Below, one piece after another: positions 13,332 through 64,000 of a stretch of DNA of 64,000 bases (position 1 is the stretch's first letter; each line of letters starts with the position of its first letter). The position numbers and the translations under genes were made by a program. The notes below the pieces were generated by a model that saw nothing but the letters and a program-made list of their open reading frames with translations, was not told where the DNA came from and searched no databases. Source of the DNA: Stratiolaelaps scimitus (taxonomy: Eukaryota; Arthropoda; Arachnida; Mesostigmata; Laelapidae); assembly GCA_019614645.1 (NCBI GenBank), contig JABWDB010000012.1, positions 7,998,001 through 8,062,000 on the forward strand, written 5' to 3'.

Positions 13332-13978
13332 TCCGGGCTTACCCCTCTGCATGTGGCTTCGTTCATGGGTTGCATGAACATCGTGATCTATCTCATCCAA
13401 CATGGAGCGAACGCCGATGTGCCCACGGTACGTGGGGAGACCCCGCTCCATCTGGCAGCCCGAGCGAATCAAACCGATATCGTGCGAATTCTACTCCGCA
13501 ACGGCGCTCAGGTTGACACCAAGGCGCGGGAACAGCAGACCCCATTGCACATCGCTGCGCGGCTAGGCAACACCGATATCGTCGGCCTGCTCCTGCAACA
13601 CGGGGCGCACGTCGACTCGGCGACCAAGGACCAGTATACGGCGTTGCACATCGCGGCCAAGGAGGGCCAGGAGGACGTGGTCAACATGCTACTTGATCAC
13701 GGGGCGTCGGTCACCGCCAAGACGAAGAAAGGCTTCACCCCGCTCCATCTAGCGGCCAAGTACGGCAATCTGCGGGTGGCCAAGCTGCTGCTGCAGAAGG
13801 AGGCCGACGTCGACGCGCAGGGCAAGAACGGCGTCACTCCACTCCATGTGGCGGCCCATTACGATCACAACGATGTGGCATTACTGCTGCTCGAGCAGGG
13901 CGCGTCGCCCCATGCGGCCGCGAAGAACGGCTATACTCCATTGCACATCGCTGCCAAGAAGAACCAGATGGACATTGG
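13332..13978 (+). CDS. Ank2: ankyrin exon: ANK repeats 13-18 and first half of 19
   Basis: 647 bases, phase 0 start and phase 2 end at GG|GTATGC. It encodes [18 protein letters not shown] (repeat 13) through [17 protein letters not shown] (start of repeat 19). This is the longest run of uninterrupted repeats in the gene. Spliced to the next exon, the split codon is GGA (Gly), giving [16 protein letters not shown]. Several stretches are nearly identical to insect Ank2 as I remember it (for example [17 protein letters not shown]), which supports an arthropod origin. Confidence 0.96.
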
Positions 13979-14094
13979 GTATGCATAGAGGTCGTCAGTG
14001 GTACCGTAGTTGTGGCGCCTGTATTATGTAGTGGTTATGGCAGAGGTAGGGGGCCTATTGGTTCATTAAAGGAACTTCAGCAATTCTCATAGTG

Positions 14095-14285
14095 CTAAAG
14101 TGCATTTAGCAACCGTCGAAGCCGCGGCGCCGACGCAGTGGCAGCAGGGGTACGGGTTCAATCCCCACCCTTTGCACAATTGCATTGAAGGGATTCGTCT
14201 TGTGAAGCTGGAAGCCGTTCCGTCCATGTTTAATTGGCCGAAAAAATTGGCCGAGAATCTGCCCGGAACATCTAATGATGATGGT
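14095..14285 (+). mobile_element. SINE-like dispersed repeat, copy B
   Basis: This is the best-preserved of the related elements in the window. GACGCAGTGGC is followed by GGGTTCAATCCCC, which matches a Pol III B box at all but one position. After that comes a body shared with 4165-4405. A tRNA-derived head with an unrelated body is the usual SINE layout. No poly-A or simple-repeat tail is clear, and no flanking duplication was found. Confidence 0.5.
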
Positions 14286-14897
14286 GATGCCCACGCATGG
14301 CCTAAGTAAAAACACCTCCGGGGTCAGGAGTAATTTTAACAAAAAATTATTAAGTGCAACTAATAGGAGGTGCGAGGGAAGGGCGCCAATGCGGGTGATT
14401 GTCCTGTTGATCGGGTCCTTGACCAAGGGCTACATAACGCCACCAAGTCCTCCCATAGGAAGAACACAGGGTGCGAGGGGCGGCTATGGGAAATATTAGT
14501 GGCGGTGACAATGGATAGAAGGGACAATGTCGGCCTCGGCCCCGGTCCCCAACTAATCCCCCTCCCAAATATTCCCTAGAAACTATTCCTAATTATTCTA
14601 TGTTTGAATAAATTTACGGATAGAATAGTGGTAGTAAATTCAATGAGGCCGATCGGGGCCGGCCTTTGAAACGGCACTGCCAGGAATGGCGGTACCGCAG
14701 ATAGAAGTCGTAGAAGTACAACAACAGCATTCAGAGGAGTCACACAAAGAAAAGATTTCTTACAACAGAAATATCTATGCCACGTCTGTTTACCATATCC
14801 ACGGAACTGCTTTCGGCATTGCTTCGCAAGACGTATCCCTCAAATGCAGAAGAGGGTGCTCGTATGTTATCGATTGAGGCATACGAATCCTTGTCGT

Positions 14898-15002
14898 AAC
14901 AACGATCCTATGGTGTCATGGTGTTGTCAATGACCCTACGGTCATGGTGTTGGCATGCCAACACCCCCCTTTAAAAGAAAGAAAAGAAAACAACGATCCT
15001 AT
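14898..15002 (+). mobile_element. 77-bp insertion flanked by 14-bp direct repeats
   Basis: AACAACGATCCTAT occurs at 14898-14911 and again, identically, at 14989-15002. The 77 bases between end in an A-rich tail (TTAAAAGAAAGAAAAGAAA). Inside, GTCATGGTGTTG is repeated twice. Identical flanking repeats plus an A-rich 3' end are the signature of target-primed reverse transcription, so this reads as a short retroposed RNA or a 5'-truncated retroelement. Confidence 0.55.
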
Positions 15003-15265
15003 AGGCTTAATGATATATATTGTGACAATCATCGTCCTAACCATATGACAGGGGGTAGGTCTGACCACTGGCGCCACTCCTCCTATTTCACTCGGCTACC
15101 TCATCGCGTTCCTTCCCATCTTCGAAACGTTCGTGGGGTCGTTCCACCAATCGTTGATTGTGTGCGCCCGCACATTTTCGTGCGATTTTTCTCCCGACAG
15201 TTCACCCCTCGCGCACTCGTCGTGTCGTGCACACCGCTCACCATGAACTGTGTCAATTGTTGCAG

Positions 15266-15707
15266 ATCTACACTGCTGGAGTACGGCGCCAAGACCAACG
15301 CCGAATCGAAGGCCGGTTTCAGCGCGCTCCACCTAGCCGCGCAGGAAGGTCACGCCGAGATGGCCGCACTGCTGATCGAGCACGGCGCCAACGTCGACGT
15401 CTCCGCGAAGAACGGCCTGACACCGCTGCATCTCTGTGCGCAGGAGGACAAAGTGAACGTGGCCGCGGTCCTGGCTAAGCACAACGCCAGAATCGATCCG
15501 GCCACCGCGGCCGGCTACACGCCGCTGCACGTGGCCTGCCACTTCGGACAGACCAACATGATCAAGTTCCTACTGCAGCACGACGCCGACGTCAACTCGA
15601 CCACGACGCACGGATACACCCCGTTGCATCAGGCGGCCCAGCAGGGTCATACAATGATTATCAACCTCCTGCTGGAGAATCGGGCCCAGCCGAACGCCAC
15701 AACGAAC
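15266..15707 (+). CDS. Ank2: ankyrin exon: rest of ANK 19 and ANK 20-23
   Basis: 442 bases, entering in phase 2 and leaving in phase 0 at AAC|GTAAGT. It encodes [15 protein letters not shown] (end of repeat 19) and then four repeats, ending [10 protein letters not shown]. Repeat 21 begins [17 protein letters not shown], characteristic of canonical ankyrins. The reading frame stays open upstream into the intron, with an in-frame ATG at 15243. That is intron read-through, because the acceptor TTGTTGCAG and the phase match with the preceding exon are exact. Confidence 0.96.
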
Positions 15708-28296: not shown

Positions 28297-28525
28297 CAAG
28301 GTCAGACCGCGCTCTCGATCGCGCAGAAGCTCGGCTACATCTCGGTCATCGAAACGCTCAAGGTGGTGACAGAGACAACGGTCACCACTACAACAACAGT
28401 TGTCACCGAGGAGAAATATAAGGTGGTCGCACCAGAGACGATGCACGAAACATTCATGTCTGATAGCGAGGACGAAGGTGAACAGGATAACATGATGGGC
28501 GACCACTCGTTCAAATATCTAACCG
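28297..28525 (+). CDS. Ank2: ankyrin exon: ANK repeat 24 and acidic tail
   Basis: Acceptor TTGCAG|CAAGGT enters in phase 0, and the exon ends at ACCG|GTACG in phase 1 (229 bases). The first part, QGQTALSIAQKLGYISVIETL, closes the 24-repeat solenoid at the same residue spacing as vertebrate ankyrins (N-Q-G-Q against M-N-G-N). It is followed by a Thr/Val-rich strand (VVTETTVTTTTTVVTEEKY) and an acidic segment (MSDSEDEGEQDNMMGDHS), both conserved between the solenoid and the ZU5 domains in the family. This linker is thought to interact with the solenoid in vertebrate ankyrins. Confidence 0.95.
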
Positions 28526-31056: not shown

Positions 31057-31484
31057 AATATATATATATATATATACATAACTGCGGTGTCCGAGTAGGC
31101 ACAGATCGTGCTTTAGCTGAACGGTGTTCAGCTCGTTCAACTGATCGAAGGCAACGCTAGGCGCGGACTTAACTCAGTCAACGCAATTCTATGAAGGCCA
31201 TCCGATAAATACAGTAGTTTCCCGTCTGGAAAGTGTCCATCGTGGCCAAGTTACAGCACGTGCTCGATTGACTTGATTCTTAGTCAACGATTCGTCAACT
31301 CGCAGCGGTTCCAATCTAACCCTTCAATTCGTGTATGCATTTGATCTCTCTTTTCCATTGCTGTGCGCCCCAATCTCGTCGGACATTCCCCTGTGACGTC
31401 TTCTCGCGCTTGCCTTCGCAACAATGGCTGCTCCTAACGCCAACGACGTTGTCATCATTGAAATCGCGGCCTCACACGCCACAG

Positions 31485-31722
31485 CGGACGAGATGAAGTC
31501 GCTAGGTGACGACTCACTGCCGATCGACGTGACCCGCGATGAGAGGTTGCACGAAGCCCATGTAGCCCAAATTGCCAGCCAACAGGCGGCCACTAGACCG
31601 CACGGCCATATTGCGCCCTCCGCCCAGGAAGAAGACAGGCTGTCGCCGTCCCATCTCGATCAATCCTTCGCCAAGGCGGCGCCCGACAACGTCGAGGTGA
31701 AGCGCACTCCGGTGCACGCCGG
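31485..31722 (+). CDS. Ank2: ankyrin exon: linker between ANK repeats and ZU5
   Basis: 238 bases, entered in phase 1 (G|CG = Ala) and left in phase 2 at GG|GTAAGT. It starts ADEMKSLGDDSLPIDV and TRDER, a block conserved in protostome Ank2 proteins and related to vertebrate ELGDDSLP. It continues with a Gln/Ala/His-rich disordered stretch ending KRTPVHAG. The block lies just before the spectrin-binding ZU5 domain. The frame is open upstream to an ATG at 31424, discussed as a possible alternative start. The splice phases with both neighbours are exact. Confidence 0.94.
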
Positions 31723-31813
31723 GTAAGTTGTCGAACACAATCGAAACGAGACGACGAAAAATGCGCACAAAAGTCACTTAATTACGTTCAATATATCAAA
31801 TGAGATAGAGATA

Positions 31814-37357: not shown

Positions 37358-37743
37358 GTTCCTGGTGAGCTTTATGGTGGACGCCCGCGGCGGCGCTATG
37401 CGCGGCTGCCGCCACTCTGGGGTTCGCGTCATCATTCCCCCGAGGCGGGCGTCAATGCCGATGAGGGTGACCTGCCGCTTCATCCGCAAGGAGAAGCTGG
37501 CCCACCCGCCGCCGCTCATGGAGGGCGAGGCGTGCGCCGCTCGCGTCATCGAGATGGGCCCCGCCGGCGCAAAGTTCCTCGGACCAGTCGTCATTGAGGT
37601 TCCGCACTTTGCCTCGCTTCGTGGCAAAGAACGAGAGATCGTCATCCTACGCTCCGACAACGGCGAGTCGTGGAAGGAGCACACGATGGAAGCGACGGAA
37701 GATGCCGTCTCTGAGGTTCTCAGCAATAGCTTTGATGCTCAAG
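37358..37743 (+). CDS. Ank2: ankyrin exon: first ZU5 domain (spectrin binding)
   Basis: 386 bases, phase 2 entry and phase 1 exit at CAAG|GTAATG. The joined codon is GGG, so the protein reads [19 protein letters not shown]. This is the first ZU5 domain (ZU5N), the spectrin-binding unit of ankyrins. The DAR tripeptide, whose mutation abolishes spectrin binding in vertebrate ankyrins, is present. Further landmarks are [30 protein letters not shown] and [13 protein letters not shown]. The whole domain lies in this one exon and is therefore present in both the conventional and the giant isoform. Confidence 0.97.
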
Positions 37744-38359
37744 GTAATGTCCTCGCCAGACATGTTCTCGTAGCAATAATACTAGAAAAAGGTCCGTCTC
37801 GCCCCGTGGTGGTGAGGCGGCAACGTCGTCTAGGTGGAGGCCAAGCGACACAGCTTGCATAAATAGACCGGAAGTGCGATATGCCACCGATCGCAGGTTC
37901 GAATTCTGCCGTAGCTGGCCACATTTAGATGTGCCGCTTCCCCCTATTCGGGACATTTGCCGAGTGATATTGCCGAGATGATATTGCCCTGAATGATTGC
38001 AATGCCGCTCGGCAACAAAAGCAACTTACACAGCTATGAAGACTGAATTGACTGTTGCTCCGTTCGCCGTTAAGAACCGCCGGCGATCTTCTCGAGTTAC
38101 AAAAAATTCGCATACACAGTCGTGTTATCCTGGTGAGGCTGTCGAGCCTCTTCGGTGTGTTTGTGTGTGTGTGCGTGTCATTCGGCACGCGTGGCCAATC
38201 GTACTTTTTTCATGGATTTACGTTTTTTGCCGGCGATTCTCGGGGTGTCGCTTGGCTCTTTCGCCGAATCACTCCTACTGTGCATTTCCAGAACCGTTGC
38301 AGCTAACCCTTTTATTGTTTTTTTTGTGTCGATTCGATGTCGTCTCTTATTCTCCGCAG
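37744..38359 (+). other. Ank2: intron between the two ZU5 exons
   Basis: 616 bases, GTAATG to TATTCTCCGCAG with a long T-rich tract. Around 37865-37930 a GCAGGTTCGAATTCTGC stem-loop resembles a tRNA T-arm, but the rest of a cloverleaf does not form, so it is probably another SINE remnant. The reading frame of the next exon happens to be open back to 38155. Confidence 0.85.
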
Positions 38360-38571
38360 AGGTGAGCGCTATGCAAGACTTCAACACCAACCGTGTGACA
38401 CGTATCCTCACCACCGAATTCCCGCAGTACTTCGCCGTGGTGTGCCGCAATCGTCAAGAGGTCCACTCAATTGGACCGGAGGGTGGCATGGTGTCGTCAA
38501 CAGTCGTGCCCCAGGTTCAAGCGATCTTCCCCGACGGGGCGCTAACCAAGAAGATCAAAGTCGGACTCCAG
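38360..38571 (+). CDS. Ank2: ankyrin exon: first half of second ZU5 domain (ZU5C)
   Basis: Acceptor CTCCGCAG, phase 1 entry (G|AG = Glu). It encodes [20 protein letters not shown], then [20 protein letters not shown] and [20 protein letters not shown], and closes KKIKVGLQ at CAG|GTAAATAAG. This is the start of the second ZU5 domain of the ZU5-ZU5-UPA supramodule. Spliced at 38571 (phase 0), it continues as [14 protein letters not shown] at 58541, exactly as in other ankyrins. If the donor is ignored, the frame runs on into the giant extension. The shared part is unambiguous. Confidence 0.96.
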
Positions 38572-41500
38572 GTAAATAAGAAAAAGAAGCAGAAATCAGT
38601 TGACCATCATAAAGATTCGCATCTCGCTGACACAGAGACATTATCAGACGATCTGAGTTTAGCGGCGAAAAAGCCGAGATTTGGTAGGTACTTTAGTTGT
38701 TTGCATTCGGCATCACCCGTCAAGAGTTTAGGCGACAAGAGACCCTCAGATAGCACGACTGTAGATATTCACGAAGGTATAGTTGCACCTAGAAAGCGAT
38801 TCTTCGTCAGAACAAAAACAACTGCTATGCGGGTAGAGATGGTTGACAGTACAAATAACAATAACATGAAGCCAGCCAAGAAATCCAACCTGAAGCCGTC
38901 ATTCCCGTTTGGTCGAAGCAACAAGAACAAGGAGGTCGAAGTTTCCGCAAGCCGGACCGCCACCGCCGTCTCCGTCGAGCGGGCCGCCAAGGACGACAAG
39001 GACAAAGATAAACAAGATAAGGACAAGCAGGGCGGGTCATCGATACCACCCATCCCCGAAATCGAATTGCCAGCTGACAATGTCTCGGACGTTGCCACTG
39101 TCGTCTGCGAGTCGCCGGTGAAGTCGCACACGCTGGGTTGCTCGACACCACGGCCTATAGGCGACAGTGTTGTGGAGGAGCTGGCCATCTCATTAATGAC
39201 ATTCCTTAATGAAGACAAACTCACGGATGAGGCGGAGGGCTCGAGTACGCAGCGTAAAGCTGTGACTCCGGAGCTGTCACCAGCTCGAAGTCTGCTAGCC
39301 AGATTGACTCCGTCGAAGAAGCGGCACAACGATCAGCCATCCGACACGGATGATTTTCCATCATCGCCAAAGAAACAAAGGCTATTCAGGACCCAAGTGC
39401 TCCGTAAGCGGAAGGGCAAGGCTAAAAAGAAGGCGAGGGACGCCTCTCCTAATAAGCCCGCCGCGACCCCCGAGCGCCTAACGGTCACTGAGTCCGAGAA
39501 GGCCGAAACAAGAAGTGTGCGCAGCGAGAACCTCGAGGTGCCAAACATTATTAAGAACACACAGTCGATGGAAAGTATTGATCTCAATTCGGAAACGCAG
39601 AGCCGAAAGGAGAGCGCTCCTGAGGTGGCGAAACCGGATGGGGCAGACGACGTTCAAAACGTCAGCCAGAAGAAAGGCTTCCTAATGCGTTTTGGCCGGC
39701 ATAGGGTGTCCAGTGTAGTTAAAGTTGCCACAGACGAGCCCTCGACGTCGACCGCTCAGGTCGATAACCGCTGTATCGAGAAGCCCAGTTCAGACGAGCG
39801 ACTGGGCAAGGTGTCAATTATTCGCCTGCTTCGTGGTGGAAGAAGATCGAGTTCAGATGCGGAATCTGCGCAAGATGCAGCATCGAGCGAGGCTATCGCA
39901 TCCAAGAACGATGACGATGACGAGAAATCGAAAGATAAGCGCAAGAAGCGCGCGACCAGACCTACTGAAAAAATTAAGGTGTTTACCCTATTTAAACGGC
40001 GCGGCGAGCGAGACGAAGATGTGGTCATCGACGAGGAGCCTCGAGAGGGCGAGGTTGAGGAAAGTGCCGAAATGCGAGTTTGCGAATCGGAGCTGAAGGA
40101 CGAGAAGGCCGCGGACACGAAGAGTGACAAGGAGGAGAAATCGGGCAGGGACGACTCGAAGTCGGAAAGTAAAAAAGAGGACCAGACCAAGGGGGACTCA
40201 TCGTCTCAGGAGAGGAAGCCCGCCAAGAAGCGCAAGAAGAAAGTGCTTTTCAGTAGATTTACGATTCAGAAACCTGAACGACGCAAGAGGCATGCCGGAG
40301 CGGGCTATATGCAGGCCACCGACGGCGATACCTCGACGGCTGGCGAAGGCCACAATGAGTCGGAGAAGAAACAAACGACAGCCTCGGACGAAAAGAAGGA
40401 CGAGGCCAAAAGTGAGACGGATACAACTGCCAATCAGGACTCGGGTCAGGGAACGTCGGAGCCGGCAACAAGTGAACGCCGAGATAGCGAACAATCATCG
40501 AGAGGCTTCTTTAGTTGGTTCACTGGCTGGCGAAGTGTGGACGATAAGATCAAAGAGGTGCCGGAAAGCTGTTGCGATACCACCGCGGAGAAGTCCGAGG
40601 CAGCAAAAGAGCTTGACCCTAACACCGAGGCTGATGTGTCCGATATCCAGAGCGAATCCGAGTCCGTCACTGACGAATGTGCAGGTGAGAAACCAATTGA
40701 TCTGGAAGAACAGATGAAGCCCAAAGCTGAGCAGAAAGATAAACTAGAAAGCCCGAAGGGCGAGCCAGACAAGCCGACGGATGCGGTATCCAGCAAGACC
40801 AAGAGCTTACTGAAGCGCTTCCGCCGAAAGCGGTCGAAGCAAGCCGCGGATCTCGTTGACTCTGGTAAGGGAGAGAGTAGCGAGGGCAGCCGACCTAGCA
40901 GCGCTAAAACTGCGAGTCGGCCATCAAGTGCATCAAAACTATTATCGATCTTCCGAAAATCAAAGTTGGCAGAAGATACGACCACCGAACAAGCTACCAA
41001 AGGGGAAGGTGAACCTGCTGGGGCAACAACGTCTGATAAGACGGAGGCGGTCACATCCGAGGTAGACGATTCCGCTGTGGCCTCAGATCCTCCCAAAGAT
41101 GATATTCCACTTAGTGAGGCAACAAGCTACCCAAAAGACAAACAAGAAGGCCAGTTAGCGGAGAATCTCGAGGAGCCTCTCAGCATCAGCGAGAAGGACA
41201 GTGGTTATGAACCCGGTCATGCAGATAAGAAGACTCTTTCTGCCGCCGTACCCTCTGGAAGAAGGAAGCCACGTAGAAATAGAAATAGAAAGGGCAAAAG
41301 TCGCGATGTATCTGCTAAAGCCGATGTCCCTCTTACAGAGGTGGCGGAGGAAAAGGTTTTACCTCATGATGTCGAGGTAAGACGGGTGGAAGTTCAGATG
41401 TCGTCGCCTCAGCAGGCTGAGCAAAAAGCGAAGAGTGTTGAGAGCAAGGTGACTGAAGTGAAGGACACAAAGATTGCAATCCGTGATCAAAAGTCTGAAG

Positions 41501-44500
41501 GCAAATCTCCGTCGCCGCCTGCTGGCGAGGGCAAACGCAACCGTCGACGACGTCGAGGCAAAAAGAGGTCTCCCACAAAACCAACTGATGGGCAAGAGAC
41601 CAAGGCCCCACGTCGGGCTAAAGAAGGCCGAAAGGAGAGGTCAGCCGAAATGTCGGCAACTGAGAAAGCAACAAAAGATGACCTAGAAGAGGCTAAGGCA
41701 GAGGTTGAAGAAGCCACAGCCGATGTTGCGAAATGTGAGATAACTGAGAGCGGTGCCACTGAAGATGTGCCATCGTCCGCAGAAGCGGTCACACAAGCGA
41801 AGACGAAAGTCCCTGAGGCTGCCGAGAAGATAACTCCAGCGCCCGCAAAACAGAAGCGGAGCTTGTTAAAGTTCTGGCCGACAAAGAAATCGAAGACCCC
41901 GTCCGATGCAAAAACTTCACCTCCCGAGACAGAGAAAGTGGCTGCTCCGAAAGTGTCTGCTGAAGCTGCCGAGGTGGCCCAACTGTCTGAGATGAAAACC
42001 AAATCCAAGCCTAGTAAGAAAAAGGCGTTCATGAGTCGCTTCCGAAAATCGAACGATGTTGAACTCAAAACTCAAACAAAAACTCCCGATGACAGCAAGG
42101 CAGAGGGCGACTCTAAAGGTGAGAATCAGGCCGATGCTGACATCGTTCAATACGCTGAGTCGCCTGACATGGAGACAGCGAAGAGCCATCAGTCTGAGTC
42201 ACCGAATAGGGAGAGCACCTCGTCGCGCAAGGGGTCTGAAGCCGAAGACAAGCCTCAAAAAGGCCTCCTGTCCAGTTTTTTGCAGTGGTCGTTCGGTCGG
42301 ACTGAAAGCCCAGAGCGGCCCGAGACTGAGACGACTACCAGCCGGCCGTCCGAACTCACACTGGCGTCTGCGAAAAACGGCGACAAAGAACCCCAAGAGT
42401 CCAAGGTAGAAATCGTTGTCGATGACACGGACGCAGATAAGGAGAATGGCGATTTTAGGGAGCGCGTTCAGTCAATTGAGTCGGAGACTCAGAGGTCTGA
42501 CACTACCTCCAAGTTTGAAACACCCGTCGAAGAGTTCAAGCCCTTGGTGGGCGAACAGAAAAAGACTACCGGTTTCTTCAGCAACTTTGGCTGGCCCGCA
42601 TCTCTTTGGACATTCGGAACCGGAACAGAGGACGAACAAAAGGACGAGGCAAAAGATGAAGCCAAGGCCGATACCAGTAACGAAACTCAGGAAAATGTAA
42701 AGGACTCCACGGAGGCCGAGCTAGCGGAGAAGGCTACTGGGGAAGCAGAGTCGAAGCCTACCGAAGATAATGCTACAGCTGTGGACGGGGTTCAAGATAG
42801 CAAGGCAGCTGAGGAAGATGCCAAGACCACTGAGTGGCAGGAGGCTGAGAGTAAACCTAAACTTTCGCAGGACGCTCGAAAGAAAAAGGACAAGAAAGAG
42901 AAGAAAGTGAGAACGTCTAAGGCTAAGAAGGACAAGCCTGATGCGAAGGTCAGTGACAAACACGAAAAAACTGAAAAGGCTCAAGAAACAACGGAAGTTG
43001 AGCTTAATGAGGATGCGCAGAAAGATGAAAAACCTGCTGCAAAATCCGCTGAGAGACAAAAATTTTCATTTAGACTGCCCACAGTAAAGGTGCCGAAGTT
43101 GTCAATAGCCAAGAAGAATTCGACAGGCACTAAGGCTGAAACTGTTGCAAAAATTGAAGCAGAGGAGGTAAAGCCAGAAGCCGCAAAAGATGGCGCACAA
43201 GAGGACGCAAAGCCGGAAGTTGAACCTTCCGCAGACGAGGACCGCGAAGGTGCAAACCAAAAAGCGGTGTCTGAGGCTGAGCCAAAAAAAGTCAAAGGCT
43301 CTTTCCTGAAAAATATATCGCTCCCAAAATTTCCGAAATCGAAAAGGAATTTAGATAAGAAATCGTCCGAGAAAGTCACTGAGTCGGTGAAAACAGAAAC
43401 GAAACTGGAGCAAAAGGAAAATATAGAGGTACAGGGACCAGTAGATGAAGAAAAAGTCGGCGACGAGACGGATAAGGCAGCAGCTGCTGAAATAGCGGTT
43501 GACGAGAAACCAACCGTGGAGACGGACCCCTCGGAGAGCGCCGCCTCGAAGGAACCCGTTGCTGGACCCTCAGGGGAGGAAAAATCAACGTCCGAAAGCG
43601 CCGAGTCGCCGAAGCGCACAATCACAATCACTATTCCTCTACCTAAATTCAAGCTGCATAAAAAAGGCAAGGGGAAGAAAGTATCCAAGTCTGCTAAAAA
43701 ATACAAGCCCAAATTGGAAGAGAAATCGTCGGCAGAAAAGACCGCAGCCGATGAGCTCCCAGCCACCGAGAAATCCGCGGATGAACAAACGACTGAAGCT
43801 GTAGAGCAGGCGGACAAAACTGCGAAAATTGAAACCGGGAAAACCAGCAAGTTATTTTTCTTATCGCTGCCCAAATTCTACCCAATGAATAAAAAAGAAG
43901 CACAGATAAAGGTTAGCGCGAAGAATAAAGAAGATTCGGATGAAATTGATAAGAAGATTGAAGAAGATGCGGACGAAAAGGCTAAGATAGCTGAGAAGCC
44001 ACCGGAGGAGTCTCCTTGCCACAAGGACAAGGCGAAGAAGATCAAGAAAGGCAAAAAATCGAAGGACGAAAAGCCTGGCAAGGTCAGGCGTGGCCGAGTC
44101 GCCAAAAAGGGCAAAGATCCCTCCCGTAAGGAGATAGCTTCTGAGCTCACCAAGACCGAGGCAGATGAAACAAAGACCAAGGCAGAGTCCGATGAAGCCG
44201 CTGTGGAAAAAAAGCTAGCCACTAACGAGGCCGAAGGGATTGATGAGGCCAGTGAGCGCCCTAACACGGAGGTTGATCGGCCTAACGTTGACGTCGCCCC
44301 GTCCTCCGAGAGCCCCAAGCCGTCGGTCAAGGAAACCCAGAAGACCCGGAAGTTTGCTTTCGCTGTCAAGGTCCCCAAATTCAAATTTAGCAGGGACAAG
44401 AAGTCAGGTGAATCGGTTCCTGCCAACGACGATAACAAAACCATTGCAGAATCTGATAAGGATGAAACGAATCAAGCCGATGGGGAGAGCAAAAATGTTG

Positions 44501-47500
44501 CTGAGCATGGCGACCAGGTGGATAAAAAGGAGCAAGAAACGACTCAGGACGATGATGAGATGCTAACAGACAGACCGACCGAAACGCCCGAACCCGTTGA
44601 AAAGAAGCAGCTCAAAATGAAACGGACTTTTACCGTGAATTTTGCAAAATTCCTTTCAAAAGGCAAAGATATATCTGTGGAGGAAGCTCGTAAGGGAATA
44701 GAAAAAGACCGGTCCGTTGATGAGGCAGATTTCGAGCAAAAATCGCTAGATGAGCCAAAGAAAGACACGGATGAGTCGCAGCCTGTAGCGGGTGATGAAC
44801 AAGAGGAAAAGAAGGAAATTAGGAAGGATGTTGATGTGAAGGATGATGTGGCTAGGGAACATAGTGCGAAAAAATCCCGCAGATTCTGGACCCCCAAATT
44901 TCCCATGCTTAGTCTGAAGTCGTCATCCAAGAAAGCAGAATCAGCAGAAAGCGAGACAGAGGCAAAAGTAAAAGAGCCGTCGGAAGAGGGAAAAGTCATC
45001 GAGACCGCTGAGAAGTCGAACGAAATCGAGGCTGAGCCAAGGTCAGAGCCCACAGAAGGGACCGACGCTGAAGACGAAGCAAAAGAAACAGATAAAAAAG
45101 ATGCTTCTCTAGGCGAATGCACACAAGGGGCACCCGCGCCTAAGGACAGGAAAAAGTTCAAGTTCACAATTAATTTCCATAAACCTAGCTTTGGACTTAA
45201 GAAAAAAGGTAAGCAGTCCGAACAAGAGGCGGAGGAAACACCTGCCGATGCCAAAAAGACTGACACAGAAGACGAAGACAAGAAAGATGAAGTGCATGCG
45301 GAGGCTGGTGAATTGACGCATATTGACGCTGCTACAGAAGTCGACGAAACGCCTGGCGAGCACGCAAAACAGGCCGATGACGCCACGGCCAAGGGGGAAG
45401 ACACTGCGGAAATTGTAACTGCTGACGAGCCAGACAAGGCAACTTCTGAACCCAAGAAAGATTTGCAGAAAAGCCGCTTCGCTATTCGTGGATTGGCTTG
45501 GCCTAAATTTTCCTCTTCTAATAAATCCGATAAAACCGAACCTCCGAAAACGACCAGCGAGGCCCAGAAACCTTCGGAGGATGTTACCAAAGAAACTGAA
45601 ACGGATGCTGAAACTCAGAGGAGTCCAAGTGAGGTTGAGCTCGAGGATGCGGAGGCTGATGGATCACGGGAGACTCCCGCTACAGAGATATCTGGCACCG
45701 CTGAATCTGACGTTCCCTCAAAGGAAACTCCGATGAAAGATGATGTAGGTCGCAAGCAACTTACGTTCACGATTACCATTCCGAAGCTTTCTATGCCAAA
45801 ATTGAAGCGCAAGAAAAAGTCGGAGCAAGAAGCCGATGAAACCACTCAAAAAGCGGACACCGAGCTAGCTCAAGACGATGGCACTGCCACAGTTGATATT
45901 GGGGAGTGCACAACTGATGACGCCAAAGAGGTTCCTGCTCGAGACACCGAAGAAATCAAGTGCGAAGTCATCTCAGCCGAAGGAAAGCCCACGGATTCTT
46001 CGGAGAAAATCGACGATGCCCCTTTAGAAGATGCGGCTGATGCTGTGGCAGCTTCGAAGCGATCCTGGTGGCAGTCGTTTATTCCAAAACCACGTGATAC
46101 CAAAACGCCAACGAAGACCGACGCCGCGGACGTGCAAGAGGAACCATCTGCTACCCAAAGAAAATTCTTCCGTTTCTCAAAGAAATCCCCATCTAAGGAG
46201 GATAAGTCGATGGAGACTTTGGAAAAGCCAGTCTTAGAGCCAGTGCCCGAGGTTTCGGAGAATGAGGCTTCTAGGTCGGAAGAGATCTCAAAGGAAGAAT
46301 TAAGAGACGAACAGCTCGTCGATGAGGAGAAACAGGCAGCTAAAATGGACACCAAAGAGGAGGTCGTCAAGGATGACAATCAAGAGACGGGCGAGCCTAA
46401 GAACACGACCAAGGAACGCAAGTTCTACGCCGTCTTCAAATTGGGTCGGAAGGTGGATTCCGCTGAAGTCAAGGCTAAGGATACCGAGGCCAGAGCGAAA
46501 AATTCTGAGACCCAGACTAAAGATACGAAGGCCGAAGCGAAGGATGGTGAAGCAAAATCTGACAAAGCTAAAGACAGTGCTGAATGCACTGACGCACCAC
46601 CCGCTACAAAACGCAGGATGTTCCGTCTCAAAAACATGTTTCGCGAGAAAAAGCCTGCCGAGGTGCCCAAAGTGTCCGACAGGTCCGAAGCAGCAAAGGA
46701 AACCAAAAAAATATTAGGATCTGCTAACGCCGATGTGGAGGGAAAATCTGAAGAAAAAGAAGAAAGCATTCAGAAAGAAACTATTGTCGACGCTTCCACT
46801 AAGGAGGTCACCGAGCCAGATGCATCGTCTGAGCCCATGACTGATAAAAAAGAAGCTAAAGAAACCGAATCTCCCGTATTAATTACGAAACAGGATATTA
46901 CCATAGATGCAGAAACTGGTTCAGTAAAGATCGAGGAGGTTGACGATGGTAAATCAAGCCCCAGTGAAGACAAACGAGATGGTGCAGGGGCCTCGCGTGG
47001 CCGTAGGAAGCGGAGAAATCGCAATCGCAAGAACAATAAGTCGAGCATCGTGCGAAGCTGCGATACCGAGATCGAGAAGACTGTCAAGGAGCAGAAGTCG
47101 GCTGATGACGAGTCGAAAATGTCATTTGTGGAAGAAAGGACTAAGGATGTGGAAAAAAATCTGTCTGAATGCAGCTTCGTGGAGGAGGGCGCTCGCGAGA
47201 TGGTCATCGAGTCGAGTACAGGCGAGGTGACTAAAATTGAAGTCGTCAGCGAAAAACGCGTAGTCACAAAGACCACAAACTCGTCAACGGTTGTGACGAC
47301 CTCATCCGTGGCCTTCGAAGGGCCTTCGGACTCCCAGTCCGCCGACAAGGCTGCTTCTGCCACCGAAAGTATCATTGAAGAGAAAGTAGAGCGCAAGGAA
47401 ATCGATAAGAGCGTGGTGGAGGAGATTTCCGAAACTCGAGAGGATGTAACCGAAGTCGAACAGAAGGACGGCACCACTGTGTCAACGTCAAAAATAGAAG

Positions 47501-48909
47501 AGGACAATGAAAAAAATCGGTTAGACGAGAAAAAGCAGTCCTTTTCGTTCTTCGGACGTTTTCGACAGAAGCGCAAAGCTGACGGCCAACCTGAGCCCGT
47601 GAGCGACGACAGCCCCGAAGTAAAAATGAGACTGCAAAAAGATGCCACCCTTATCGACGCTAGCCACAGCTCGGACGTCGTCACGGAAGAAATCACCGTT
47701 GATGCGACTGGTGAGCCTAGCGACGGCAAACCAAAAAAGAAGAAGCGCTACTTTAAATTTACGAAGCGTTTCGTAAAAAAGAACATTGTTGAATCGGTAC
47801 AGTCGCCGGATAAGGGCCGCAAGCCGGGGGACGCCAGTGGCTCGAGTGAGGTACACGCACAAAACACGGAGGTCGTCAAGACAACAGAGGTGACGAAATC
47901 GACGGAGAAGCAGGAAAATGAAGAAAAACGACCAGGCACCGCTGAGGCCAGCAAGGCTGAGGGGAAAGGCGACGAGGCTCGACCCGAAGAAAAAGCACAA
48001 TCTGAGGTCAGGGGAAAGCCAGAGAAGGACACGGGCATACTGGCCTTCCTAGCGAAACGACTGCGCAGATCGGACAAGGACAGCGGTAGCTCGGCCGGCG
48101 ATAAAGCCACCACCGATGTGGCACCAACGAAGCCGGCAAAGGCAGTAAAGCAAAGCCAGGCAGCGAAAGCAGACGAGCCGACGAAGTCGGAGGAGAAAGC
48201 TGAAAAAGATGACGCTGAGAGGTCCGAGAATCCGGCAGAAGATGATGAAGATGATGATGATGAAAACGAAGACAACGATGATGACGAGGAGAGCACTGTG
48301 GACAGCACAAAAAACGAGGGCGAATCCTCGGACTCGACCGAGATCAAGGACACTTCAGATGAGGACTCAGCAGAGAAGCACGAAGGAGGAGACAGCAAGG
48401 CAACGAACGAGGCGAAACCTACTGACAGCGACGAGAGGACAAAAGCACCAAAAGCCAGAGGAGTGTTCGGCTGGCTCAAGCGAACCAAGCCAGGCAGTGG
48501 CGGCAGCAGTAAGGTTACGCCTGCCGATGTCGACAATAAGACAAGGTCGAACAGTCACGGGAAAGCGGAGTCTCGCGGTGGAAAGGGCGCAGACGTTGGC
48601 AAGGCCTCGACGGCGCCAAACGTGTCGGTGAACGGTGGCGACTCGTCAAAGACAGCTGACACGGCCTCCGTCGAGGAGGAGCGGCCCAAGAAGAAGGGCA
48701 AGCGCCTTTTTCAGAAGGGCAGCAAAATTGAGGACGAAAAAGCGGTAGTCATTAGCAAGAAAGGGTTCGACAATCATGGCCAAGATGAGTCGGCTGGCGC
48801 GAGCACCTCAAGTCAAGCACCTAAGTATGACCACTTCGGACGAAGCTACATATTCCGCTGGCCAGGCGTCCGTTACAATAATACCCTTGATACAGCTGCC
48901 CGACAGTAG
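38572..48909 (+). CDS. Ank2: giant ankyrin extension (terminal giant exon)
   Basis: An uninterrupted 3,445-codon frame continues in phase from the ZU5C half-exon to TAG at 48907-48909. It has no ANK, ZU5, UPA or death-domain similarity. It alternates at least 35 short basic/aromatic modules (for example [19 protein letters not shown] at 44347, [16 protein letters not shown] at 47731, [12 protein letters not shown] at 40501) with long Lys/Glu/Asp/Ala/Ser/Thr-rich spacers that should be disordered. Arginine-rich RRNRNRK blocks occur at 41263 and 47002, an acidic run at 48226-48297, and an aromatic C-terminus ([16 protein letters not shown]). Maintenance of one frame over 10 kb shows it is translated. 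Other giant ankyrins are neuronal and link the axonal membrane to spectrin or microtubules, so a similar role is an inference. A protein ending here would keep all 24 ANK repeats and the spectrin-binding ZU5N, but only half of ZU5C and no UPA or death domain. Confidence 0.9.
38660..42620 (+). repeat. Ank2: giant extension, N-terminal block of basic/aromatic modules
   Basis: About seventeen modules, at roughly 38665, 38790, 38877, 39370, 39671, 39816, 39973, 40231, 40501, 40801, 40936, 41263, 41533, 41856, 42016, 42259 and 42569. Typical cores are [31 protein letters not shown] and FMSRFRKSN: two to four bulky hydrophobics followed by Arg/Lys clusters. Two members near the end ([12 protein letters not shown] and [15 protein letters not shown]) are more hydrophobic. 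Spacing is irregular, about 45-150 residues. Confidence 0.75.
43060..45820 (+). repeat. Ank2: giant extension, central block of strand-like KFxF...PKF modules
   Basis: Ten modules, at 43060, 43294, 43615, 43849, 44347, 44623, 44875, 45151, 45475 and 45754, each about 15-22 residues. They share alternating basic/hydrophobic residues and a PKF or PKL core: [78 protein letters not shown]. They are more alike than the flanking blocks, which suggests recent internal duplication or strong shared constraint. Spacing is about 80-165 residues. Confidence 0.8.
46057..48726 (+). repeat. Ank2: giant extension, C-terminal block of basic/aromatic modules
   Basis: Modules at 46057 ([11 protein letters not shown]), 46159 ([13 protein letters not shown]), 46417 ([12 protein letters not shown]), 46612 ([14 protein letters not shown]), 47002 ([10 protein letters not shown]), 47536 ([13 protein letters not shown]), 47731 ([12 protein letters not shown]), 48034 ([15 protein letters not shown]), 48457 ([10 protein letters not shown]) and 48690 ([13 protein letters not shown]). 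Between 47110 and 47500 a Val/Thr/Glu-rich segment (for example [12 protein letters not shown]) breaks the pattern and recalls the Thr/Val strand after ANK 24. Confidence 0.75.
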
Positions 48910-50949
48910 ATGCTAGACTAGCATTGTAACGTACGCTGTACCTAACTTCCAACGTTTTCGGCGGAGAGCGCGATACGCGGTAGCATTCTCACGTGCAACC
49001 ACCCACTATGTTGTCTCTAACAAATCTTTCATCGGAAGATACCACCGAAATGCCGTCTCCTCCTGCTAGTGTTCCTTAGCAACAGGAGGAGAGAACGACG
49101 GTGAGCCCCTGCAGCCTCGAAGAAAAATCGCTATCCGATATTTTTGCTCTTGGGTGTGTCATAGCTTGGTGCTGCCAGGTAGCCAAGTTGTCATCTAGCG
49201 ATACCAGCGGATCTGGCAAACGAACATCGACGATGGACGAAATGTCGACCTGTCCGACGACCCGGACGATGTGTGGCCCTAGAACGTGGGATCACAACTG
49301 ATCTCCCCTGGGGTAGCGTTGTGAGTCCCTTCGCGACTCACGGCTATTGCCAATGCTACGATCCATATACATAGCTTATCATGCCGCTGGACCTATGACA
49401 GTCAGCTCGTAGATATTGATACCATGGAACAGTGAACGCACACGCTCAACTCATTACTGGGCTGAGCCTACTAATCGGTATGGATACTCAGTGGCTCGAT
49501 CATACCGAATAGGGGGAGAAAGCAAAGATCTTGTTGTCGCAGATAGACGCACCCGTCGTCGACGACGTACACGGGACGTACACGGTACGTCCCTCCTCTG
49601 ATCGTCTCTTGGGTGTGGATCTGAATGAGAAATATCGATAGTTGTGTTCGAGGGCTCTTGACAGCTTCAAACTCGTTGGCTGGGTGGACGCTCTGCGGCC
49701 AAGTGCAAGTCACAAGTACAGAGCGACAGTATATACATATATATATATATATTATATATAGAGAGATTGATAGAGGGATATCTCACTTGAGGGTATATTG
49801 TCATGATTGACATAGCATTGCATTATCATGATAGGCAGCAATCAATGTATTATATGACGTGAGGATAAACACGCACACAACACACCCTTTTTGATCGAGT
49901 TCTACTTGTTTCGGATTTTGTTTGGTGCGGCTCAACGTGCAATTTTGGCCTTTGGCCAGAGGTTTCTGCGAGAGCAGATGTCGCTTCTTGCTCGTCGACC
50001 ACAGGATTACTTTCGATGATTATGAGAACGATATGATTACCGGCTAGATCCGATCATGATCTGAATAGCGTGGAATCCTTTGACATCCTGGCCATTGCCG
50101 TCCGCTCAGATACCGTCTCGTATATTCAGATACTATTTGCACACAGTCAAGTGCCGTTACCACAAAACGCACGCGAGAAGGTACCAATCTCATCCATGTG
50201 ATCTCATTTTCGCTGTTTGATAAGTTGATCGTTTTGTTCAGCTTTCTTATCGATATATCAACACATACATACATGCATACAAGAAAACCTATGTACACAT
50301 GCACACCTTTTATAAGGTACAATTGATTTCTGATATATATATAACCAAGCTGACCATCATTTTTGCTATGTTATCCCATGGTTATCATAATCTATTAGGA
50401 CTATTATAACTATTGTTATAGTTGTATTATACACACCGATTTATTTGTTAGTGGCACACGTCAAGTGTATGGCCACATCATTTTGTGATATTTTCGACAT
50501 GGCGTACGAGTCGTCTTTTGATCTCCCCCGCCGATTTTCCGTTAGTTGAACACTCATATACACGTTGATCGAGAAGAAGATGATGATCGTCGCCTGAAAA
50601 ACGCCCATTTCGCACGTTCGATTTGTGTTCGCGTTTTCCGTAGGTCGCTGTTGTACTACATCGGAGTTTTTACATTATCTGTTAGGGTTTTTTTCTTCTC
50701 ATTTTCAATGTACCACTTACGTTCGTCCGAGTTGCATTGTACACATCAGCATCATCACAAGCGTTCGTTGATTACAGCAGCTTTGCGAGTGAATGACACT
50801 TGATTAGCGAGATGGTGGTCGTTGGGTAGTATCGTGATGTACATGTATATAACGGCATTGAGCGCCGCATGCGCCACTCGATACAGTCACACACTCAGTG
50901 AGCGACGACAAGGGAGATACTATTTTTTGTTCCTTTTACCCACACTACC

Positions 50950-50977
<28 letters not shown>
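50950..50977. repeat. (TA)n microsatellite
   Basis: TA run in the 20-kb intron. Similar tracts are at 51233-51292 (with a CA section) and 51416-51470 (ending in TG units). Confidence 0.9.
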
Positions 50978-50980
<3 letters not shown>

Positions 50981-51411
50981 CGGTCGGCAAGAACACAGTG
51001 ACATACGTAGGTATGGAGAGAGAGAGAGAGATATGATAAACAGAGACACCAAAGCCTCGTATTGGTTTTCTTGGCCAACCCTTAGTGGCCCGGTGGCCGG
51101 TAACAATGCGTCCAAGTATTATTTTTTCCATTATTGCAGGCATATATATATATATAGATATTTAGCGGTAACTAGAGAGAGAGACATATATAGGTATTAA
51201 CCTACCATACACTATATACAAACTATATGACGTCTATATATATATATACACACACACACATACATCCATAATATATATATATATATATATATTCATGCTG
51301 CGTCGACATAATACTACTCATAATCGAGACGTGTATAAAAGAGTAGGAATCTGTCTTATGTCGTCAACTGACGAAGGGTGTAGCCGGCACGCAAGCCTGA
51401 TTGTATAGAAT

Positions 51412-51457
<46 letters not shown>

Positions 51458-53782
51458 GTGTGTGTGTGTAACGACTGAATGAAGAGGGGAAATTTATACT
51501 AACTACCTTTATTATTATTATTATTGCTATTGTTATTAGCATTATCCTCATTAGTATTATTGTACCTCGATAGAAGTGATGCGGTATTCCAACAGTATTC
51601 AAGCAGTATTCAGATGATACAATGATCTCGATGTATCTCTCATCGTTTAATGTAACAATATTGGCCTGTATTTGACGACTCATCGAATAGATCGATTTTC
51701 GTCTGCGGGTCAATATCGAAGTCGTTTAAATCGAATTTGAACGGTGAATGCCGCAGAGTCCAGTCGGCATAGTTGTATAGCACCTGTATATAACTATACA
51801 CATATATATACATACATATATATATACATAGAAAGATTAACATACACAGATATACACATGGGGGCGAAACCCGCTGGCAGAGCCGGGCTTAATGGGCGCA
51901 TGAATCAATGTCATTTCTCTTGATTAATCAACTAACAGATTCTAACTAACAGAAGCGCTCACGAATCATTTGTTGTTGCTCGTAATCTGATTTTCTCCAC
52001 ATTCTTATTATTATTATTATCCATATTTTTAAAAAATGGGGTCACCAACGTCGTCCGTCATTACCAGATTGTATATCTAACTTTTATCGGCATTTACATT
52101 CGCGCTGGCCTACGGCTCCGTTGCGTCGATCAAGTTAGCCGGGCATTTTTGAGAATGCTTTTAGCATTTTGCATAACGTGTATAGTGGAAATATATATAT
52201 ATTTTTTTTCCATAGAAATATATATATATATATACATGACGAATGGGAGCAGTGATTTTCAATTAGTAAACAGGAACAACCAAACTAGTCAGCCACCATG
52301 GAGTGGCAATTATCCGGCACGATACTCACGCTGTCACGATCGATTCGATGCCAGCTGTTATGCATTGCGTCGTACGCGACCATTTTCTCCACCGGCAGAG
52401 CTCGTCTCCCCTCCAGCCAACGGTTGCTGTTACTGCCTGGAGTTCGCAGGTCATGCGGCGATTCATTAGGTTCGTCTAGAGTGTGGGATTCATACGTGGG
52501 AACGGTGACGGTACGCCCAAATTGCGGTTATCCATTATGCTCGATTGCGCAATCGAGACCACATAGAAAATACGAGGAAAAAATGCACTATCATGGCTAG
52601 TAGGTCGCGCACACCCCCAAACACCAGTCTAGTCTTCAGAGGTAGCGGACTGAACAAACGGAGTGGAGCAGGCCCCCGCCGCCTCCGCCGCAAGAACAAC
52701 ACCAAAACAACACATTCATCATACGTGGGACACGGAACGACGTACATTACGGCACAGAAAACACGCATACATTGCCTCATGGACGTGAACAACACGTCCA
52801 ACGAGTAGCGTCCCCTATGTTTCATATTGTACTTATGCTCAACGTGTAAGCTAGTCCTTGTATCCCATAAGAACGTTCCATCGCATAAGTACAGTGTTAT
52901 GTATACTACACACAGCATAGATACATACATATATATATATATACTTATTGCCTATAGACCTGCCAAGGTGACGGCGTCTCCCTACCGAAAAGTATTTCCG
53001 CATAAAGACATGTTTGTTTATAAGTCACAGCATAAACAGTATTGAACTATAGATAAAAATCATTAGATACGTACTGTATCTGTAGGTCGACAATAGGTGA
53101 CTAGATGACAGAATCGCCTGTTAATATCATCATTAACTAATCGTTAATTCAATATATTCAATGTTTTTTTCAATTATTCTTCTTTATCATAGAGGTTTAC
53201 CTGTACTTGTCACCATGTGTGGCACATTGCTAGAATGGGTTATCGAAAACACAATGAGTCTAGCCCATGTCAATTTTCAATTAGACAGATATAGCTGTTC
53301 CATTTGTGGACAGCGTCGATCCAGCCCGTTACAATAACAACAACAGTAGGACCAAGAAAGACTAACTATCAACTATACTGGATCTAATCTCTCCGGAGGA
53401 CAGCTTTATGATTATTCTCTGATCTCATTATTGTAGTGAGATTAAATCATTTTTGTAGTTATCGCTCACGATTTCGTTTCTGTCGCGAAGTTCGTTGTTC
53501 GCGAAAACAAATCTCAACCGTTGCGTTGTCCTTCAGTTCCTTCAAAAAAGGGGGGAACTGCAACGAACGGAGGTCAACGAACGTCATCAACAATTAATCA
53601 CAACATCATCATTATCATAGTCACTCATTGCCACCATCTGTCATTAATTCCCCGCTCATTCATCTGAGAGAGAGAGAGAGCTTCGATGGACTCGCTTGTG
53701 TGCTTGCTCCTGACAAGCACGTGAATAGCTTCTTCCTCATCAATCATCGATCTGCACATAGTCATACGAGACCTCACATACC

Positions 53783-58540: not shown

Positions 58541-58745
58541 GCCCAGCCGATACACACCGATGTTGTTACGAGACTTCTGGGCAACCGCGTGGCTGTCAGC
58601 CCGATCGTAACGGTCGAGCCGCGTCGACGCAAGTTCCACAAACCCATCACCTTGACGATTCCGCTGCCGCGAGCTGCCCACAAGGGCATGACGAACCAGT
58701 ACTCCGGAGATGCTCCCACACTCAGATTACTCTGCAGTATCACAG
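58541..58745 (+). CDS. Ank2: ankyrin exon: second half of second ZU5 domain
   Basis: 205 bases, phase 0 entry after CCGTTACAG and phase 1 exit at ACAG|GTAATC. It begins [19 protein letters not shown], then [19 protein letters not shown], and ends [13 protein letters not shown]. These blocks follow KVGLQ directly in all canonical ankyrins, which identifies the exon as the continuation of 38360-38571 across a 19,969-base intron. It completes ZU5C, which packs against ZU5N and UPA. It is absent from any transcript that reads through to the giant stop codon. Confidence 0.96.
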
Positions 58746-59686: not shown

Positions 59687-60735
59687 GTGGACAAACCAAG
59701 GCTCAATGGGAAGACGTGACTGGATCGACTCCGTTGACGTTCGTCAACAATTGCGTGTCTTTCACCACCACCGTCTCGGCCAGATTCTGGCTAATCGACT
59801 GCCGCCAGGTCAGTGACGTGACCAAATTCGCAGGTGAACTCTACCAGGAAGCAGTGCTGGTCCCGTTTATGGCCAAATTTGTGGTATTCGCCAAGCGCCA
59901 CGAGCTGCTCGAGGCGCAATTGCGAGTGTTTTGCATGACTGACGACCCCGAGGAGAAAACACTCGAGTCGCAAGAACACTTCGCCGAGGTGGCGAAAAGC
60001 CGAGATGTCGAGGTCCTCGAGGGCACGCAACAGTACCTCGAGTTCGCGGGCAACCTTGTGCCCATCACCAAGTCCGGGGAGCAGCTCGCTCTCACATTTG
60101 AGGCGTTCAAGGAGAACCGAGTAGCCTTCAATGCCCGCGTCAAGGACATGCACCAGGAGCCGATGGGCCGTGTCGCCTTCATGAAGGAGCCGCGCAGCAA
60201 GCATCAGGACGCTCCACAGACGCCCGTCTGCAATCTCAACATCAAGCTGCCGGATCCGATCGAGTACGAGAGTGTGCCCCTTGAGAAGAAGTACGGCTTC
60301 GTTCAGGAGACCGGGCTTGGCCCGCAAGAGATGATCCATCGCGGCGACCTGCATCTGTCGGATACGGCCAAAGAGCTAGGCGCCGACTGGGCAGCTCTTG
60401 CGCGCCAGCTGAACGTGCCGACTCAGGAGATCCAGCAGATCAAGGACGAAATACCAAACGACAATGATCAGCAGGCATTAACTATGCTTCGCATCTGGAT
60501 CCAGCGAATGGGCCCGGCCGCGACGGGCAACACACTCGAGAAGGCGCTACAGAATATTGGAAGGGAGGACATTGTGCGAAAGTGCATGTCCAACACCGAG
60601 GTGGTCACTGACGAGGTGGAGCGGGCACTAGCAAAGGTTCATCTGAGCGGAGCAGCTGTTCCGCCCTCAATGACCACAGTCACCCGTACAAGCGTTGTCA
60701 GGACCAGCTCGGCTGACGAAAGGGACATTATGAAG
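59687..60735 (+). CDS. Ank2: ankyrin exon: UPA and death domains
   Basis: 1,049 bases, phase 1 entry (G|GT = Gly) and phase 0 exit at [28 protein letters not shown] continues ZU5C. UPA follows, with landmarks [59 protein letters not shown] and [15 protein letters not shown]. After a linker of about 40 residues comes the death domain: [20 protein letters not shown], then [18 protein letters not shown] and [23 protein letters not shown] and the death domain lie in the same exon, so the vertebrate giant-exon position between them does not exist here. The start was set by the phase match and the QWEDVTG block. Confidence 0.96.
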
Positions 60736-61292: not shown

Positions 61293-61365
61293 GACGCGGA
61301 ATCGGCCGAAGATACCAGCAGTGGATCCGCCAAAGCTAAGCCAACTGCCGCCCCTGCACCTGTTG
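61293..61365 (+). CDS. Ank2: ankyrin exon: short Ser/Ala/Pro linker of the C-terminal tail
   Basis: 73 bases, phase 0 entry and phase 1 exit at GTTG|GTGAGT. It encodes DAESAEDTSSGSAKAKPTAA and PAPV, low complexity and presumably disordered. The good pyrimidine-rich acceptor, the consensus donor and exact phase agreement with both neighbours support it. Sequence conservation cannot be judged. Small alternatively used tail exons are common in ankyrins. Confidence 0.8.
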
Positions 61366-62075: not shown

Positions 62076-62110
<35 letters not shown>

Positions 62111-63016: not shown

Positions 63017-63049
<33 letters not shown>

Positions 63050-63897: not shown

Positions 63898-64000
63898 ACG
63901 AGTTTTTTGGCATAACCCGCGGGGCCGATCAAACTCAAACCGAGATCAGGTCTTCCTCGACCACGACCTCAACCTCGAGCTCAACGAAGACCTCCGTAAT
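63898..64000 (+). CDS. Ank2: ankyrin exon: start of the C-terminal tail, cut by the window end
   Basis: Acceptor GTTTCAG; phase 1 entry joins G|AC = Asp, giving PAPV-DEFFGITRGADQTQTE. Then comes a Ser/Thr-rich run (SSSTTTSTSSSTKTS) to the last base. The other two frames are worse: one hits a stop after five codons. The exon continues beyond the window, so it cannot be told whether it is short or the start of a second giant tail like those of fly Ank2 and worm unc-44. Confidence 0.8.

Follow-up and report, generated by a model that had tools for sequence, protein, structure and literature searches.

How far from the death domain can the giant exon of an ankyrin gene lie? In vertebrate AnkB and AnkG, in fly Ank2-L/XL, and in worm unc-44 the long exon adjoins the death domain, and the accepted account is that giant ankyrins come from one long exon that has been shifted relative to this domain (PMC5135030). 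The question is raised by a 64,000-nucleotide stretch of the mesostigmatan mite Stratiolaelaps scimitus (contig JABWDB010000012.1, positions 7,998,001 to 8,062,000; the window), in which a very long open frame opens inside the second ZU5 domain (ZU5C) of an ankyrin gene. ANK repeats, the ZU5-ZU5-UPA block, and the death domain are all found in this one gene, which makes it a canonical ankyrin gene. A preliminary description of the locus had proposed that a single splice donor decides between a conventional ankyrin and a giant isoform without half of ZU5C, UPA, and the death domain. The frame, the phases, and the domain positions support this, and we consider it probable that the mite gene has a composite (read-through) terminal exon whose donor is either used, giving the conventional ankyrin, or ignored, giving a giant of about 4,560 residues.

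The exon encoding the first half of ZU5C (38360-38571) aligns with the solved Ankyrin-2, -3, and -1 chains as far as ...VGLQ, where it reaches a phase 0 donor, CAG/GTAAAT at 38571/38572. It is contained in an open reading frame (ORF) of 3590 residues (38137..48909, stop to stop), which, as had been noted before, continues past the donor for 3,445 open codons and a stop ending at 48909. With 10,338 bases the extension has the form of the known long exons, an uninterrupted coding stretch of thousands of bases. Its two other frames contain 93 and 306 stops, and the longest open run in 200 shuffles of its bases was 246 codons. About 1,117 residues are encoded upstream of the donor (a rough sum of aligned blocks within the limits given by tblastn), which together with the extension fits the proposed size of the giant. 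From 58541 on, the remaining half of ZU5C, UPA, and the death domain do follow in matching phase.

That the extension is coding is best seen by comparison with P0002, a protein of 3,452 residues (source label "lgn") and the single relative found when 7,973 candidates were scored with the full frame. It shows the same read-through to the same stop, with 55% identity from end to end (1966/3584; re-alignment gives 1957 identical pairs among 3375 aligned), and keeps the long exon uninterrupted. Within the ZU5C half 94% of the positions are identical; past the donor the identity is 80% over the initial 30 residues and 68% over the final 60. Because the conservation sets in with the codon right after the donor and the stop is shared, the extension appears to be translated as a direct continuation of the exon, with its stop in use; a separate exon with its own acceptor, which the preliminary description had named as a possible refutation, is not borne out. 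The DNA encoding P0002 is probably genomic and unspliced, because the residues before ELNAMQDF are not ZU5N, the first and spectrin-binding ZU5 domain. A partial Tropilaelaps mercedesae protein (P0003, BIW11_05008) comprises ZU5N, half of ZU5C, and the beginning of this extension, with 96% identity to the window in ZU5N and 62% in the remainder, as suits DNA of a mesostigmatan-type mite. VNKKKK directly follows the donor in the window, P0002, and P0003. Near residue 273, close to the extension start, P0003 has an in-frame gap compared to the window and P0002, which could reflect a predicted intron or a genuine deletion. In the genome, the first 100 codons of the extension occur in one copy, and no relatives were found in genome_contigs or viral_contigs.

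The extension also has the composition of a giant ankyrin exon. The signature of these exons is about 25% S+E and more than 55% S/E/T/D/K/P according to PMC5135030, and the extension has 23.2% and 59.0%, respectively. Pfam assigned no family to it, and from its sequence the tail looks disordered. The residues best kept in P0002 are W (85%) and F (79%), those least kept A (35%). In total 75 F/W residues are identical in both mites, located at 40 spaced sites. They are clustered, with 13-14 pairs at distances of 2-4 compared to about 2.5 in 300 shuffles, and their surroundings are basic. Within 17 residues around F/W there are 4.37 basic residues against a shuffle maximum of 3.60 (P0002: 4.10 against 3.46) and 1.27 acidic residues against a shuffle minimum of 2.96 (P0002: 1.75 against 2.65), again in 300 shuffles. 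A regular expression for the motif matched 18 times compared to at most 12 in shuffles (P0002: 19 compared to at most 17). Thus, the tail may be a flexible arm whose roughly 40 aromatic spots in basic surroundings would act as repeated weak binding sites for a membrane, a microtubule, or a partner protein. EB-type SxIP motifs were considered and rejected, since there are two in the window and none in P0002.

The same donor is read through in many other arthropods. Searching with the first 500 columns yielded 87 matches from 7,998 candidates scored, of which P0003 was the best. By a fixed rule, 56/87 continue after the donor with the conventional A[QH]P.., 26/87 with V.., and 5/87 with neither. 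Revision of the V.. group by eye added P0045 and removed a fish model (P0056) and a barnacle model (P0044), which both carry an intron and then continue conventionally, leaving 25 read-through proteins. The open frame after KVGLQ that the preliminary description had suggested looking for in related species is therefore present as a giant in P0002, with its start in P0003, and in 25 of the 87 matches overall; 24 of these 25 read into small tails. The five named sources are Tropilaelaps, two Timema, Henosepilachna, and Culex, all of them arthropods. Given the phase of the donor, V-N after it must be encoded by GTN AAY. The usual G at +5 is missing from the donor in 15/26 of the rule-based read-through proteins, as it is in the window; the donors GTAATG and GTAATC of the same mite gene also lack it, and its absence is therefore no proof of regulation.

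Two types of small tails can be distinguished, both terminating in conserved stops. Fourteen tails start with VN[ML]F[RK]PR (insect/crustacean type); eight of these end exactly with SL[IV]W after 33-34 residues, while two are cut short, two extend beyond, and two diverge. Between beetle and mosquito the tail is identical at 28/33 positions, ZU5N at 97/116, and the ZU5C half at 61/70, so that the insect tail is as conserved as the adjoining domains and may be under selection. The chelicerate-like tails comprise nine starting with VG, of 241-412 residues (P0011, P0012, P0013, P0015, P0016, P0021, P0031, P0032, and P0045), and P0004, which starts with VR and has 146 residues. These ten align with a common W and a common P near the C-terminus. 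Most VG tails carry W-V-L-I and H-I-V-N-I-R-P blocks, with ends around F-F-P-R-V. In a tree of 69 residues, built without P0015, P0031, P0087, and P0089, the chelicerate-like tails form a group together with a spider ankyrin and the mites (support 0.83), which is a hint at most given the short alignment. The tails sit on ANK-repeat proteins in P0007, P0020, P0050, and P0051. In P0050, ANK repeats, ZU5N, half of ZU5C, and the tail lie in one frame of 633 residues on a contig of 2,252 bases, which looks like a cDNA. P0006, P0007, and P0009 similarly contain ANK repeats, ZU5N, half of ZU5C, and the tail, whole or in part; their source label is "merc", which we take to be a catalogue assembled from marine metatranscriptomes. 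The small tails use the same exon, donor, and frame as the mite but differ in length (33-34 or 146-412 residues when complete, against 3,445) and show no significant sequence similarity to it.

Among the published ankyrins, a close counterpart is Drosophila Ank2-S, a protein of 1,159 residues limited to ANK repeats and the first ZU5 (PMC5135030). Like the predicted mite giant, as read from its sequence, Ank2-S lacks UPA and the death domain; unlike the giant, its tail must be short. It derives from cDNA RH63474 (PMC6703079) and retains binding to Neuroglian, which it pulls down (PMC3627646). Short Ank2 isoforms were located in neuronal cell bodies (PMC10186683). Ank2-S probably ends just past the same donor, because its length corresponds to a 33-residue tail after about 1,126 residues, close to the roughly 1,117 of the mite. 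With the giant ankyrins of other bilaterians the mite frame shares one very long ORF, a disordered S/E/T/D/K/P-rich product, and the weak or absent similarity among long exons, but it differs in opening inside ZU5C and in a product without half of ZU5C, UPA, and the death domain. The arrangement had been thought undescribed. Indeed, no description of a giant exon inside ZU5 or in mites was found in open-licence PubMed Central papers, and the giant size seen here was not found in print. However, the kind is known, with Ank2-S published and read-through in 25 of the 87 matches.

The two isoforms could be produced by a switch. Splicing at the donor 38572 would generate the conventional ankyrin with ANK repeats, ZU5N, ZU5C, UPA, death domain, and further tail exons. 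If the donor were ignored and the transcript cleaved and polyadenylated within the 10-kb intron, the product would be a giant of about 4,560 residues consisting of ANK repeats, ZU5N, the first half of ZU5C, and the 3,445-residue disordered tail. The first ZU5 is assigned the spectrin binding and the second ZU5 is part of an auto-regulating block (PMC9864249). The giant would thus keep the binding to membrane partners and spectrin but lose the ZU5-ZU5-UPA regulatory block and the death domain. A decision between splicing and polyadenylation also sets the C-terminus in the alternative last exons generated by intronic polyadenylation (PMC8904962); in the mite it is the proximal terminus that would be the giant one. 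The switch could be of the type set by the ELAV/Hu proteins, which cause a neural bypass of proximal last exons in fly neurons (PMC8904962).

Other explanations of the extension have to be weighed against a composite terminal exon. It is scarcely conceivable that the extension is a chance or decaying ORF in an intron. It is known from genomic DNA alone, which would allow this, but a frame of this length is far outside the shuffles, and the residue-specific conservation and the stop shared with P0002 contradict it. A giant tail transcribed from an internal promoter, consisting of ZU5N, half of ZU5C, and the tail or of the tail alone, and in both cases without ANK repeats, seems unlikely. In its favour, some fly Ank2 isoforms have transcription starts downstream of the first intron (PMC10186683), and the extension frame continues without a stop in front of the ZU5C exon, as far back as 38137. 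However, the tails found on ANK-repeat proteins in four other arthropod sequences argue for the full-length form.

The two remaining explanations concern splicing. The extension could be an internal giant exon from which a later donor splices in phase to 58541, so that ZU5C would be interrupted while UPA and the death domain were kept. Six GGTRAG-type sites inside the extension could serve this purpose, but none of the NAG/GTRAGT consensus donors is present, the last 60 residues and the stop are kept in P0002, which is unexpected if the end were spliced out, and the small tails of the other arthropods end in conserved stops. We regard it as quite improbable. Slightly less probable still is a separate terminal exon entered through an acceptor of its own, in which case the ZU5C half would be absent from the giant or joined to the tail via a short intron. 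YAG trinucleotides do occur shortly past the donor, and the gap in P0003 looks as if an intron had been predicted there, a real deletion being equally possible. Yet the first YAGs would give introns of only 21-29 bases, both full-length sequences keep the frame free of interruptions, and VNKKKK, directly after the donor, is conserved in the window, P0002, and P0003.

Several points weigh against the composite exon and its proposed origin. The open frame, the phases, the conservation from donor to stop, and the read-through into small tails in other arthropods are observations; the production of the giant isoform in the mite we infer from the genomic sequence only, and the full-frame search returned P0002 alone, with no giant isoform of roughly 4,560 residues among annotated proteins. 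The sense strand of 48910-53440 is without AATAAA/ATTAAA for 4.5 kb past the stop (0 compared to 6.9 expected from block shuffles), the first canonical poly(A) hexamer being located at 53441. The opposite strand of this region is also low in hexamers (3 compared to 7.4 expected). The hexamer-free 4.5 kb would fit a long 3' untranslated region (UTR) and equally offers no canonical signal for a 3' end. Between the mite tail and the insect/crustacean tail there is no similarity beyond shuffles. The mite tail does not match the pattern VN[ML]F[RK]PRK...VNH.PKKKR[FW]SL[IV]W, and the last 17 residues of the insect/crustacean tail reach a best score of 19.1 in it (shuffles: median 17.0, 95% point 24.0). 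With this score within the shuffles, a derivation by sequence from the insect/crustacean tail was rejected. In similarity to the C-terminal block of the chelicerate-like tails (around F-P-R-V), the end of the mite frame ranks 58th of 3431 windows (chance about 0.19) and the end of P0002 5th of 3345 (chance about 0.018). A multiplication of this block inside the giant tail was rejected as inconsistent between the two mites, the ten-best sum test giving 0.038 for the window and 0.654 for P0002. Because the similarity tests gave no consistent signal, descent from the small tails is argued from position and not from sequence. Lastly, a first predicted model of the beetle short form was uninformative (mean predicted local distance difference test (pLDDT) score of 34.7).

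A second beetle model, based on an alignment of 55 sequences picked by hand from 89 proteins, has pLDDT values of 77-87 in the ZU5N blocks and about 89 in two strands at the start of ZU5C. From residue 309 nearly all values are below 50, and most of the ZU5C half and the tail are under 50-55. The model agrees with a lost ZU5C without showing the loss. A resemblance of the insect/crustacean tail to the missing ZU5C half, by which it might replace the absent strands, was rejected, because 49% of shuffles reach the best ungapped score and most of the tail has these low pLDDT values in the beetle model.

The preliminary description had placed the giant exon in ZU5C instead of beside the death domain, and here it needs correction. 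In the next 80 kb of the contig, with the numbering continued from the window, S/E-rich frames of 1,645 and 1,094 codons follow the death domain on the same strand (Table 1). S+E amounts to 22-27% in these two and in the preceding 365-codon frame. The region 68690-68830 matches the portion of P0049 past its UPA domain (51%, E 1.7e-4; one such match in 41 queries), and together with the in-phase 365-codon exon this indicates that the ankyrin gene extends well past the death domain. The 1,645- and 1,094-codon frames likely belong to it. Neither has a Pfam or NCBIfam match; the longer one contains four copies of a block like SPTMKAHAVQLTEEDADRLLHxEEYMEVL. There is no long frame between UPA and the death domain. 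Given these candidate long frames past the death domain, the giant that opens in ZU5C would probably exist in addition to, and not instead of, one of the usual kind.

Table 1. Features of the ankyrin locus. Positions beyond 64000 continue the window numbering; limits of the ANK-repeat and linker exons are edges of tblastn blocks, approximate and not exact splice sites.
Feature	Position	Strand	Evidence
ANK-repeat exons	10938..15707 (blocks 10938-11486, 11760-11948, 12399-12797, 13329-13976, 15267-15707)	+	Aligned by tblastn to P0051 and P0008; Pfam Ank matches in four frames
Linker exon between ANK repeats and ZU5N	28300..28524	+	tblastn, 61-71% identity to P0051/P0008
Second linker exon	31445..31732	+	tblastn, 35-38% identity to P0051/P0008
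ZU5N exon (spectrin-binding ZU5), ending in phase 1	37358..37743	+	Pfam ZU5 E 2.1e-31; splice sites CAG/ and CAAG/GTAATG; 96% identity to Tropilaelaps P0003
ZU5C first half, common to both isoforms	38360..38571	+	Match to solved ankyrins; acceptor and donor read from sequence
Predicted giant extension past donor, 3,445 codons and stop	38572..48909	+	Open frame; kept end to end in P0002
Possible 3' UTR of giant isoform (hypothesis only)	48910..53440	+	No AATAAA/ATTAAA on sense strand
ZU5C second half, conventional isoform only	58541..58745	+	Pfam ZU5 positions 49-79, 18.9 bits (cut-off 21, just missed); 80-86% identical to ankyrins of other arthropods
Rest of ZU5C/UPA and death domain, conventional isoform only	59687..60735	+	Pfam UPA_2 E 1.1e-50, Death E 2.7e-18; splice sites
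Next exon, in phase	61293..61365	+	Read from sequence
Start of K/S/E/P-rich exon running beyond window	63898..64000	+	Acceptor CAG/ACGAG, in phase with preceding exon; frame to 64976
365-codon frame	63882-64976	+	Acceptor continues gene in phase
1,645-codon frame, probably post-death-domain ankyrin exon	77912-82846 (L003:3912-8846)	+	
1,094-codon S/E-rich frame	87431-90712 (L004:3431-6712)	+	Open frame

The genome (426 Mb, 145 contigs) was also searched by profile. The UPA_2 profile has one match, which is this gene (2 candidates scored), and the ZU5 profile has six, one of them at this locus. Three of the ZU5 matches (L011, L012, and L013) presumably resemble UNC5 receptors, and two neighbouring matches on C5 gave no ankyrin match at E 1e-3. 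Scans of the 64-kb window for tRNA and Rfam families found nothing. Several (TA)n-type runs are present at 62080-63620, in the introns after the death-domain exon.

The giant appears to be an old alternative terminus in enlarged form, and its long tail would have grown at a site that was kept small in many arthropods. A wider reading, to which we give about an even chance, is that the single ankyrin gene of mesostigmatan mites makes two giants, one by long exons past the death domain and the other by sacrificing the ZU5-ZU5-UPA block at a donor read through since before the split of insects and chelicerates. One donor would then switch a regulated to a constantly open scaffold with a disordered, multi-site arm of 3,445 residues, and the giant would have arisen by growth of an old alternative stop. 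If this were true, giant ankyrins arose at least once more and not via an exon beside the death domain. The conserved giant frame at this third place would represent a second route to a giant ankyrin. It would also offer a natural experiment on the purpose of the ZU5-ZU5-UPA block, as a giant with ANK repeats and the spectrin-binding ZU5N but without the block. In addition, the short form of fly Ank2, which has received little study, may be a member of an old and strongly conserved class of isoforms with a selected tail.

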